Both the position numbers and the translations under genes were made by a program. Positions 2,187 through 5,743 of a stretch of 11,503 nucleotides of DNA are shown in pieces; position 1 is the first letter of the stretch, and each line of letters begins with the position of its first letter. The notes beneath the pieces are model-generated. The model had not been told where the DNA came from. It did no database searches and saw only the letters and a list, made by a program, of their open reading frames with translations. Source of the stretch: Deltaproteobacteria bacterium (GTDB taxonomy: Bacteria > JAUYMQ01); assembly GCA_030698575.1 (NCBI GenBank), contig JAUYMQ010000334.1:1-11503 (forward strand). The letters run 5' to 3'.

Positions 2187-3299
2187 ATGATATTCGGCGC
2201 TATTCTGCTTGCGATCGTATTCCTGATCTGGACCTGGCTCGTCATCGGCGTTCTGCACGAGGGCGATCGGTTCCGGCTGCGGTCGCCGCCCCCCGAGGCA
2301 GGAAAAGGCCCGAAGCCCCCTCGGATCTCGGTGATCGTTCCCGCGCGCAACGAGGCCCATCAGATCGCCGTCTGCATTGCTTCCCTTCGCGGGCAGACCA
2401 TTTTGCCGCGCGAGGTCATCGTCGTGGACGACTGCTCGACGGACGGCACCGGCGCCGTCCTGCGCGGGCTGCCTGAAGACGGTGTGCCCGTGACGGTTGT
2501 CGATGGCGCCGCTCCGCCGGCGGGCTGGCTCGGCAAGGCGCACGCGCTTCACCAGGGCGCTGCCCGGGCCACGGGCGAGTGGCTCCTCTTCACCGACGCG
2601 GACACGATCCACGCACCGGAAACACTCGCCGCGGCGCTTGCCCACGCCGGCGGCAGCAACGCTGCGCTCGTTTCGCTCACCGGCGACCAGCGCGCCGAGA
2701 GTTCCTGGGAGCGCATCGTCCAGCCGCTGGTCTTCCGGCTCCTCGATGCCCTCTACCCGCTCGCGGGCGCGAACGGCCCCGATGCCGGCAGGGTCGCTGC
2801 GAACGGCATCTACATGCTGATACGTCGTGACGCCTACGATGATATCGGGGGCCACGAAGCGTTCCGCGGCGCGGTTCTCGAGGACGTCGCCATGGCGCGC
2901 GCGTTGAGAGAGAGGGGGCATCCCACGGCGTTCCTGCGGGGCGATGAGCTGCTGCAGGTCCGGATGTACAGGGAGTTTCGCGAAATCTGGGAAGGCTGGA
3001 CCAAGAACCTCTGGTTCCTGCTGGGCGAGAACGCTGCGCGCGCGCGGATGGTGGCCGCCCTGGTGCTCCTCGCAGGGTTCCTGCCCGGCGCTATGCTATG
3101 GTATGGCGGCGCAACGGGGGGGCTCGCCGCCATCACGGCGGTCGGCGCCGAAGCCTGGTTCCGGCGGGGTCGCAAGCCTCTCTGGGCGCTCACGCTTCCG
3201 CTTGGAGCGCTGCTGCTGGCGGCGATGATTGGCGAATCCGCACGGCGCCACCTCGAGGGCAGGGAGTTCTCATGGAAGGGCAGAACCTACCCGTCATGA
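2187..3299 (+). CDS. Membrane-anchored family 2 glycosyltransferase
   Basis: This 370-residue GT-A fold enzyme transfers a sugar from a nucleotide donor to a lipid or other acceptor at the inner face of the membrane. An N-terminal membrane helix (3-22) is followed by the GT2 core: ISVIVPARNEA (47-57), VVDDCSTDGT (79-88, nucleotide-binding DD), the metal-binding TDADT (136-140) and LEDVAMA (231-237, general-base ED). A degenerate QxxRW-like segment, RMYREFREIWEGW, is at 259-271. Two further hydrophobic segments lie at about 287-305 and 332-348. The arrangement resembles HpnB/CrtQ-like hopanoid- or carotenoid-associated transferases, but the acceptor cannot be read from sequence. The ATG at 2187 follows a GGAAGGGGG run about 11 bases away. 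The end of the gene overlaps the next start, so it is translationally coupled to the pterin genes. A role in pterin glycosylation is possible but speculative. Confidence 0.87.
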   Translation: MIFGAILLAIVFLIWTWLVIGVLHEGDRFRLRSPPPEAGKGPKPPRISVIVPARNEAHQIAVCIASLRGQTILPREVIVVDDCSTDGTGAVLRGLPEDGVPVTVVDGAAPPAGWLGKAHALHQGAARATGEWLLFTDADTIHAPETLAAALAHAGGSNAALVSLTGDQRAESSWERIVQPLVFRLLDALYPLAGANGPDAGRVAANGIYMLIRRDAYDDIGGHEAFRGAVLEDVAMARALRERGHPTAFLRGDELLQVRMYREFREIWEGWTKNLWFLLGENAARARMVAALVLLAGFLPGAMLWYGGATGGLAAITAVGAEAWFRRGRKPLWALTLPLGALLLAAMIGESARRHLEGREFSWKGRTYPS

Positions 3300-3733
3300 C
3301 GATGACCCGCCGCGCGGCCTTCAGCGCGGCTCATCGCTATCACAACCCCGCCTGGGACGCCGCGCGCAACGATGCCGCGTTCGGCGACTGCACCCGTGTT
3401 CACGGCCATAACTACGTGCTCGAGGCGAGTGTCACCGGTCCGGTGGATCCGCGCACGGGCATGCTCATGAGCATTGCCGATTTGAAGAATATCCTGGCGG
3501 AAGAGGTCGGCGGGGTCTTCGATCACCGGCAGCTCGAGGTGGAGGTGCCCGAACTGCGCGGCAGAATCCCGACCTCCGAGAACGTCGTCCACTCCCTCTG
3601 GGGCCGCATAGCGCCCCGTGTGGCCGGGACCGGGGAGGGGTGCTACCGCCTCTCGCGCCTGCGCCTCTTCGAGACCGAGTCGTTCTTCGTCGAGATCGGT
3701 GACGAGGATTCGCCCGGGGGGAGGAACGGTTGA
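3272..3733 (+). CDS. 6-carboxytetrahydropterin / 6-pyruvoyl-tetrahydropterin synthase-family protein, QueD-type motif (paralogue 1)
   Basis: This member of COG0720 (153 residues) acts on 7,8-dihydroneopterin triphosphate, the FolE product. The zinc ligands are H21 (SAAH), H44 and H46 (HGHNY). The nucleophilic cysteine is C40 in CTRVHGH, i.e. the CX3HGH spacing of QueD-type enzymes that make 6-carboxytetrahydropterin for queuosine. D84-H85 (FDHRQL) completes the catalytic triad, and E134 (ETE) matches the pterin-anchoring glutamate. The ATG at 3272 is chosen because GGAG lies five bases upstream. It lies inside the 3' end of the glycosyltransferase gene (28-base overlap). An alternative ATG at 3296 forms an ATGA overlap with that stop but has no well-placed Shine-Dalgarno. 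Family and active site are secure. Which pterin product is made is not, because COG0720 members are functionally promiscuous, so no symbol is assigned. Confidence 0.88.
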   Translation: MEGQNLPVMTMTRRAAFSAAHRYHNPAWDAARNDAAFGDCTRVHGHNYVLEASVTGPVDPRTGMLMSIADLKNILAEEVGGVFDHRQLEVEVPELRGRIPTSENVVHSLWGRIAPRVAGTGEGCYRLSRLRLFETESFFVEIGDEDSPGGRNG

Positions 3734-3735
3734 TC

Positions 3736-4167
3736 ATGGTTCTTCTCACCCATCGCTTCGATTTCTGCGCGTCGCACCGGCTGCACAATCCGGACCTCTC
3801 GGAGCGGGAGAACGATGCCCTGTATGGCAAGTGCAACAACCCCAACGGGCACGGGCACAACTATCAGCTCGAGGTGACGCTCGCGGGCGAGCCCGATCCC
3901 GGGACGGGCATGGTCCTCGAGCTGTCGATCCTGAAGCGGATCGTCGACGAGGAGATATGCGAGCGCTACGATCACAAGAACCTCAACCTCGACGTCTCTG
4001 ATTTCAAGGAGCGGATTCCCACGGCCGAGAACATGCTGCTGGTCATCTGGGAACGCCTGACGGGTCGCATTCCCCGGGGCAAGCTGCACCGCCTCAGACT
4101 GATCGAAACCGCGAACAACAGCTTCGAGTACTTCGGGCCTCCGAAGAACCCGGGAAGCGGGCAATAA
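3736..4167 (+). CDS. 6-pyruvoyl-tetrahydropterin synthase-family protein, PTPS-II-type motif (paralogue 2)
   Basis: This second COG0720 protein (143 residues) has a different active-site signature from its neighbour. C33 lies in [11 protein letters not shown] (33-43), the CX5HGH spacing typical of 6-pyruvoyl-tetrahydropterin synthases of the tetrahydrobiopterin pathway. Zinc ligands are H14 (CASH), H39 and H41. D79-H80 (YDHKNL) and E124 (IETAN) match the triad and pterin-anchor positions. The ATG at 3736 lies 11 bases after GAGG. A TTG at 3730 overlapping the previous stop, with a 5-base spacer, is a real alternative that adds two residues. The preceding gene ends at 3733 and folE begins four bases after this one, so all are one operon. 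It may make 6-pyruvoyl tetrahydropterin or share work with paralogue 1. A sepiapterin reductase, expected for biopterin synthesis, is not in the window. Confidence 0.88.
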
Positions 4168-4171
4168 CGCC

Positions 4172-5743
4172 ATGAAGATTCGTGATCATTACTATGAGAT
4201 CCTGAAGGAACTGGGTGAGGACCCGGAACGGGAGGGGCTCCGCAAGTCGCCCGACCGCGTGGAGAAGGCCCTTCGCTTCCTGACGGGCGGCTACCAGAAG
4301 GATCCGAAACAGGTGCTCAACGGCGCGCTCTTCACCGAGGAGTACAACGAGATGGTCCTCGTGAAGGACATCGATGTCTTCAGCCTCTGCGTGCCAAGTA
4401 AGCAGATCGTCAACGCCGTACGGGGCGCCAAACCCGCCCGAAACCTGCGTGTGGGTGATGAGCTCTGGACGCTGCATGAAGGCAGGATCGCAAGAACGAC
4501 CATCACGAAAATCTCGAGCAGGGCCAGCAGGGATGTGGTCGTTCTGAGGACGGATAGGGGAACCTTCAAAGTGACGTCGGACCACCCCGTCATGACGGAT
4601 CAGGGATGGCAGGAGGCGGGCAAGGTGGATCCGGGAGTCAGAATCGAGTGGATCAATCCCAGGTCGCTTTGTCGGAGACGCGTAAGACCGCAAGAAGGCT
4701 ACCCGCTCGGATACGTCCTGGGAGCCGTTGCATCCGATGGAAGTCTGCAGGATGGCCGTCGCATCTGCCTCACTGTCACGAACCACAAATTCGCCGGCAG
4801 GTTCGCTGAGATGTTCGGCGAGGCCTTCGCGGTATCCACACCTCGCATGGAAAGAGTGAAGGTTCCGTCAGGTTACCGTGGGGAGGAGATCCAGGCCTAT
4901 CGAGTTCGAGTCGTATCCCGGGACGCGGGCGAGAAACTCTGCCGGTGGCTCGGGGTCCACGAGAAGGGGGCCCGCTCGAAGACGAAGACCTTTCGTTTCC
5001 CGGAAGTAACCCTTTCCTCAAGGGAGATGTTCGCCGGATTCCTTGACGGCTACTGCGACGGAGACGGTCATTCCCTGAAGAAGGGCGGCGGACGAATGAT
5101 CGTCACGTCCAACCGCGGGTTCGCAGAGGAACTGGCGCGAGTGCTGCAAACGACAATTGGGAAGGGACATCCCGGCATTTTCCGGGTTTACATATCGCGT
5201 CGATGGGACCAGGAAGGATGGTATGGGCGACACGGATTCCGAAAGGAGCGGGAGTTCTACGTTCCCTTCGACAGCGCCTGGGCGACGGTACTGGGGGTCG
5301 ATCGTGTTCCCCGGCCGAAGAAGCCCTATCGCGTCTACGCGATCAAGTGCGAACCGCATCCGACCTTCCTGGTTGCGGGACATCTAACCCACAACTGCGA
5401 GCACCACTTGCTCCCCTTCTTCGGCAAAGCCCACGTGGCCTACATCCCCGACAAGAAGATCGTCGGCCTCTCGAAAATCGTCCGCCTGATCGAGATCTAC
5501 GCCCGCCGCCTGCAGGTCCAGGAGCGGCTGACCAACGAGGTCGCACAGACCATCGCGGAGCAGCTCGAGCCGCAGGGTGTGGCGGTCGTCATCGAAGCGC
5601 AGCATCTCTGCATGCAGATGCGCGGCGTCGAGAAGCAGAACTCCATCGCCATCACCTCGGCCATGCTCGGCCAGTTCCGCGAGAACGCCAAGACCCGCAG
5701 CGAGTTCCTGGGCCTCATCCACAGCGGCATCCGCCACGTCTAA
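4172..5743 (+). CDS. folE: GTP cyclohydrolase I (FolE) precursor interrupted by an intein
   Basis: This enzyme converts GTP to 7,8-dihydroneopterin triphosphate plus formate, the entry step for folate, biopterin and queuosine-type pterins. The precursor is 523 residues. Residues 1-72 (ending KDIDVFSL) and 409-523 (starting [10 protein letters not shown]) join to a normal-sized 187-residue FolE. The zinc ligands correspond to C409 and H412 in CEHH and to C480 in [27 protein letters not shown] and LTNEVAQTI are all intact, with no frameshift. Residues 73-408 are an intein that begins with Cys, ends His-Asn and is followed by Cys409, so splicing should restore the exact enzyme. Until then a zinc ligand is displaced and the precursor should be inactive. 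The gene lies four bases after the second PTPS-family gene, last in the operon. Host codon use is CGC/CGG/CGT for all 13 extein arginines, unlike the insert. Confidence 0.96.
4388..5395 (+). mobile_element. In-frame intein with LAGLIDADG homing endonuclease, inside folE
   Basis: This is a 336-residue protein-splicing element in the folE frame. Splicing motifs in order: block A starts with nucleophile Cys1 ([10 protein letters not shown], then [12 protein letters not shown]); block B is KVTSDHPV with T63 and H66; block F is [18 protein letters not shown] (314-331); block G is HLTHN (332-336) with penultimate His335, Asn336 and +1 Cys supplied by FolE. Between B and F lie two LAGLIDADG motifs, [12 protein letters not shown] (107-118) and [13 protein letters not shown] (215-227). 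Both keep the terminal acidic residue before Gly, so the endonuclease looks intact. The insertion falls on a codon boundary, CTC|TGC, within the most conserved part of the gene. Arginine codons are AGA, AGG or CGA in 21 of 40 cases, against 0 of 13 in the flanking extein, which indicates acquisition from another genome. Splicing and nuclease activity are inferred from motif integrity. Confidence 0.95.

Follow-up and report, generated by a model that had tools for sequence, protein, structure and literature searches.

Inteins typically insert near the active sites of their host proteins (PMC3359363, PMC7765530). Among the closest described systems, the Mtu RecA intein (PI-MtuI) is a class 1 intein with a LAGLIDADG endonuclease, and the TliVMA and PhoVMA inteins (7qsu, 7qss, and 7qst), hosted by the archaeal V-ATPase, combine a splicing and a LAGLIDADG domain. 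We analyzed a window, the whole stretch of 11,503 nucleotides, in which a 336-residue insert interrupts the gene for GTP cyclohydrolase I (FolE). This insert shares with the Mtu RecA intein the HINT fold, Cys1, Cys+1, the T..H of block B, the C-terminal HN, and the position of the LAGLIDADG endonuclease. However, its host is FolE, the Asp at F:4 is replaced by Ala or Ser, a conserved Cys occurs at F:7, and the identity is about 20%. The TliVMA and PhoVMA inteins gave the best full-length structural and profile match, covering both domains, although their host is not FolE and the domain placement differs (large overall rmsd). Mycobacterial DnaB and fungal Prp8 inteins share with the window intein the Cys-based splicing in an essential host gene; conditional splicing was shown for them, whereas it is only conceivable for the FolE intein. 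Other FolE proteins carry same-site inteins of the main (type-1) family, for example L096, those of Rokubacteria, and that of Saccharopolyspora spinosa (L058). These occupy the same codon with the same HN/CEHH junction (the slash marks the splice point) and are 34-69% identical to the window intein, although 17 same-site inteins are mini-inteins without the endonuclease, unlike the window intein.

The coordinates of all features are given in Table 1.

Table 1. Features of the interrupted folE locus in the window and of the FolE inteins in L049 and L134.
Feature	Position	Strand	Basis
6-pyruvoyl-tetrahydropterin synthase family gene 1	3296..3733	+	PF01242, 99 bits
6-pyruvoyl-tetrahydropterin synthase family gene 2; its end lies 4 bases upstream of folE	3730..4167	+	PF01242, 118 bits
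folE precursor ORF (N-extein, intein, C-extein), 523 aa plus stop	4172..5743	+	ORF translation, Pfam
N-extein, FolE residues 1-72, C-terminal end ...DIDVFSL	4172..4387	+	alignment to solved enzymes
FolE intein, 336 aa, Cys1 to His335-Asn336	4388..5395	+	sequence, family alignment, AlphaFold2 model
Block B, T63-S-D-H66; T and H invariant across the family	4574..4585	+	
Predicted LAGLIDADG homing endonuclease region, about residues 100-270; missing from mini-intein relatives	4685..5197	+	
LAGLIDADG motif 1, intein residues 108-118	4709..4741	+	
LAGLIDADG motif 2, intein residues 217-227	5036..5068	+	
Block F region, Ala at F:4 and Cys321 at F:7	5327..5374	+	
Block G, GHLTHN	5378..5395	+	
C-extein, CEHHLLPF... 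to the stop; first residue Cys+1 (E. coli Cys110 equivalent)	5396..5743	+	alignment
Second zinc-ligand Cys codon (E. coli Cys181 equivalent), without intein in the window; second intein here in L049 and L134	5609..5611	+	
Two inteins of L049 FolE	L049:1822-2817 and L049:3031-4026	-	
L134 Actinomycetota FolE, intein at the Cys181 site only, CEHH uninterrupted	L134:1398-3023	-	

The precursor frame remained open through 523 codons with no internal stop. Pfam GTP_cyclohydroI scored 239 bits, split over two stretches of the 523-aa ORF, and TIGR00063 reached 240 bits against a cut-off of 181.6, which corresponds to a full FolE profile. The rat and human GTP cyclohydrolase I sequences aligned end to end with residues 6-73 and 409-518 across a gapless junction, where a single alignment column was contested by Cys73 (the intein Cys1) and Cys409 (Cys+1). 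The sequence-only reading had placed the intein exactly at 4388-5395, between FSL and CEHHLLPF, and the gapless FolE alignment supported these boundaries. Excision of the intein in silico left a FolE of 187 aa; due to the gapless junction with the rat and human enzymes, the spliced product would be a complete FolE. In E. coli GTP cyclohydrolase I, Cys110 and Cys181 are zinc ligands. Numbering by offset, with ORF residue 405 as residue 106 of E. coli 1fbx, assigned ORF residues 409, 412, and 480 to Cys110, His113, and Cys181, so that the zinc ligands are all retained and Cys409 is the Cys110 equivalent, as had been claimed for the +1 Cys.

The intein starts with CVPSKQ (block A from Cys1) and ends with GHLTHN, followed by CEHHLLPF. 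All the splicing residues were present, namely C1, T63 and H66 of block B, H335-N336, and C+1, and both LAGLIDADG motifs harbor an acidic residue. Pfam LAGLIDADG_3 scored 34.6 bits with the whole ORF and 36.3 bits with the intein alone (cut-off 22.5). The AlphaFold2 model of the intein, built with 44 relatives, displayed a HINT fold with a pLDDT of 91.9 and a pTM of 0.85. The top Foldseek matches to the model were the endonuclease-associated inteins TliVMA and PhoVMA, and PI-SceI, with TliVMA as the best (E 1.1e-18), and the splicing domain was superposed on that of the Mtu RecA intein with a Z of 20.3 and an rmsd of 1.7 over 132 residues (VIA-align). The motifs, the Pfam match, and the predicted fold bear out the complete 336-residue intein with a LAGLIDADG endonuclease that had been read from the letters; at the level of sequence and model, the insert is confirmed as a real class-1-type intein with a predicted LAGLIDADG endonuclease region.

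The window intein has Ala at F:4, where most relatives have Ser and class-1 inteins often have Asp. Cys321, at F:7, was conserved in 59 of the 61 inteins of the family alignment (60 loci with both junctions, plus the window), that is, in all 59 type-1 members. We assumed the F:4 and F:7 labels from the spacing to the C-terminus of the Mtu RecA intein. Class 3 inteins need no nucleophile at position 1 and carry a Cys at F:4. A class 3 mechanism was rejected for the window intein, as Cys1 is present, F:4 is Ala, and the Cys sits at F:7. Only some 60% of inteins have the F-block Asp (PMC7765530); therefore, the Ala at F:4 is not disabling as such.

For the distribution of the insertion, GTDB contigs and viral contigs were scanned at the DNA level, with degenerate codons, for the pattern HN/CEHH-x-x-P. 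The scan matched contigs of 62 bacterial species and 8 viral contigs, and every match was an intein-type C-terminus fused to FolE; these counts are lower bounds because the pattern requires HN, CEHH, and Pro. The carriers belong to at least nine bacterial phyla. They comprise Actinomycetota (mainly Pseudonocardiales, and also Streptosporangiales, Rubrobacterales, and Geodermatophilales), Rokubacteria/Methylomirabilota, Nitrospirota, Gemmatimonadota, Chloroflexota, Planctomycetota, Elusimicrobiota, Omnitrophota, and Poribacteria, and some are cultured strains or complete genomes (L068 and L085). The N-extein was present within 60 loci, all of which insert at the same FolE column and have an intein starting with Cys. 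C1, T63, H66, H335, and N336 were invariant in 61 of 61 aligned inteins, and the recurrence of this junction at 60 further loci excludes chance. Within the phylum of Methylomirabilis oxygeniifera, 20 of 95 genomes carry the intein, and most of the others have an uninterrupted FolE.

The suggestion that the insertion site might be new or rare did not hold in nature, given its occupancy in 62 genome and 8 viral contigs. Its proviso, that many FolE inteins might already be catalogued at this site, came true for sequence data and failed for published descriptions: no published FolE intein was found among the open-access papers searched. The CEHH site of FolE is apparently a common and widely shared intein site undescribed in the literature. 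With FolE, the intein hosts, otherwise mostly proteins of DNA and nucleotide metabolism, come to include an enzyme of central metabolism.

When a phage collection was searched, the window intein gave no match, the viral type-1 intein L036 gave one weak match in a tape measure gene, and the viral type-2 intein L039 retrieved 65 records. None of the L039 matches listed was annotated as FolE; they were terminase, dCTP deaminase, other genes, or unannotated. The plasmid search resulted in one weak match, in dnaE. A split intein suspected in one genome (G086) was discarded, as the frame in question encodes a normal FolE without an intein.

Concerning mobility, both LAGLIDADG motifs and their acidic residues are retained in 40 of the 61 inteins. 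Mini-inteins of 141-192 aa account for 17, one of the two motifs is damaged in two more, and the remaining two, both viral, represent another lineage. The endonuclease part showed a dN/dS of 0.05-0.21 in seven pairs of relatives (the nearest relative of the window copy is 69% identical), which indicates that the endonuclease is kept under purifying selection in those relatives. The extein of L049, a Rubrobacter MAG, groups with Rubrobacter (support 100/95), whereas its intein groups with the NC10/Nitrospirota types, and constraining the exteins to the L049 intein grouping was rejected (p-AU 3e-36). Additionally, one intein-free FolE (L003) nests among the intein-bearing Rokubacteria at almost zero distance. 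The window intein pairs with that of L096 (a Candidatus Methylomirabilis oxygeniifera MAG) with full support, and an extein tree constrained to pair the two was not rejected either (p 0.18); a recent move of the window intein from the L096 lineage is only one possibility. The GC3 of the window intein is 0.70, against 0.83 and 0.95 for its exteins and 0.81-0.90 for five neighbor genes. Collectively, the patchy presence, the conflict between extein and intein trees, the lower GC3, and the low dN/dS fit homing with horizontal transfer, including between phyla.

Two relatives deserve separate mention. The shortest intein of the family is a Poribacteria FolE mini-intein of 141 aa (L045:710-1132), a possible splicing tool. 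In a Rokubacteria locus (L059:5818-6900), the intein is intact but the FolE C-extein is cut short immediately after CEHHLLP. The FolE C-terminus continues in a different reading frame (G102:C63:6848-7042), representing either a pseudogene or an assembly deletion.

The window insert is almost certainly a mobile, self-splicing class-1-type LAGLIDADG intein in a recurrent folE site directly before the zinc-ligand Cys. We infer the splicing and homing of the window copy, as well as the order of the chemical steps, as follows. The zinc site could not form in the precursor before splicing. An N-S acyl shift would begin at Cys1, the N-extein would pass to Cys+1 (the Cys110 equivalent) as a branched thioester, and Asn336 would then cyclize as the exteins join into the 187-aa FolE. 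The endonuclease would cut intein-free folE alleles, into which the intein would be copied, and such copying into empty folE would explain the patchy distribution.

The window MAG is 91.6% complete, with 4.6% contamination and 653 contigs, and no other folE or FolE2 was found in it. None of 97 relatives compared was closer to this organism than the level of domain. The two tandem pterin synthase-family genes upstream of folE (window 3296-4167) differ from each other, and the second has CNNPNGHGH. With a sole folE, no FolE2, and two adjacent pterin synthase-family genes, pterin synthesis very likely depends on splicing, in agreement with the sequence-only reading.

Dependence on splicing is not regulation. 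A conditional zinc or redox switch, in which Cys1, Cys321, and Cys+1 would restrain splicing under oxidant or zinc and gate pterin synthesis by cell state, is unlikely. This proposal draws on the conservation of Cys1 and Cys321 in all 59 type-1 inteins, on Cys+1 being itself a zinc ligand, and on the sole folE of the window MAG. Three reports describe reversible inhibition of mycobacterial DnaB inteins by zinc and oxidants (PMC7360933, PMC6195587, and PMC8557812), which also counts for such a switch. However, Cys-dependent inteins can generally be inhibited in vitro by zinc or oxidants, and a needed regulatory role is opposed by the lack of the intein in most FolE proteins of the M. oxygeniifera phylum and by an extra uninterrupted FolE in 8 of the 19 carrier genomes checked. 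Cultured carriers with no second folE include Actinokineospora inagensis and Longimycelium tulufanense. Inteins fill the site in nine or more bacterial phyla as well as viral contigs, related species show full, mini, and empty states, and several carriers are cultured; both the homing cycle and a possible regulatory function are therefore testable, and FolE offers one small, easily assayed enzyme for such tests.

We consider it very improbable that a degenerate, non-splicing intein inactivates the window folE, with pterins obtained otherwise. Such decay could be read from the Ala at F:4 and from the broken FolE C-extein of the Rokubacteria relative L059, but the window frame is open, the nucleophiles and block B are intact, the exteins are complete, and the sole folE adjoins two pterin synthase genes. 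Even more remote is an assembly chimera, in which the assembler joined a foreign intein into folE. The fragmentation and contamination of the MAG and the GC3 of the intein, unlike its surroundings, would be compatible with a chimera; nevertheless, both junctions are in frame, and the insertion codon is shared with 60 other loci, several of which belong to cultured strains or complete genomes (L068 and L085). The mobile, self-splicing intein is the reading we retain.

The most interesting part of the finding is a two-cysteine pattern in FolE. The viral inteins L034 and L039 are 17-18% identical to the window intein and have the classic VANGxVVHN tail, which indicates that the CEHH site was taken by at least two intein lineages. 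The L049 FolE ORF, of 864 aa, harbors two inteins, one before each zinc-ligand Cys (the Cys110 and Cys181 equivalents). The second has 332 aa (EAEHL/CYDRETEIL...VVSGN/CMTMRGV) and immediately precedes the Cys181 equivalent. Among 396 genomes searched from the L049 phylum, one more second-site intein was found, in L134, with 317 aa and 63% identity to that of L049. Inteins thus occur at each of the two cysteine zinc ligands of FolE. No convincing sequence similarity was detected between CEHH-site and Cys181-site inteins, and the latter, apparently unrelated to the former, were found in two Actinomycetota genomes, one with both sites filled. With unrelated inteins at both of its zinc-ligand Cys, FolE clearly illustrates how inteins insert at catalytic residues. 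No Cys181-site intein was found in viral contigs, and one match was rejected as a FolE that lacks an intein and contains HNCM naturally.

These data raise the reading of FolE as a hot spot at Cys110 and Cys181, which unrelated inteins occupy singly or together and where splicing senses zinc or redox and gates pterin synthesis. That both sites are occupied is shown by L049 and L134, whereas splicing there may sense zinc or redox only by conjecture, and the reading as a whole is improbable. The endonuclease motifs of the L134 intein look degenerate. Two viral FolE inteins of the different lineage at the CEHH site, L034 and L038, have a Cys at F:4, and L034 also has Cys1.
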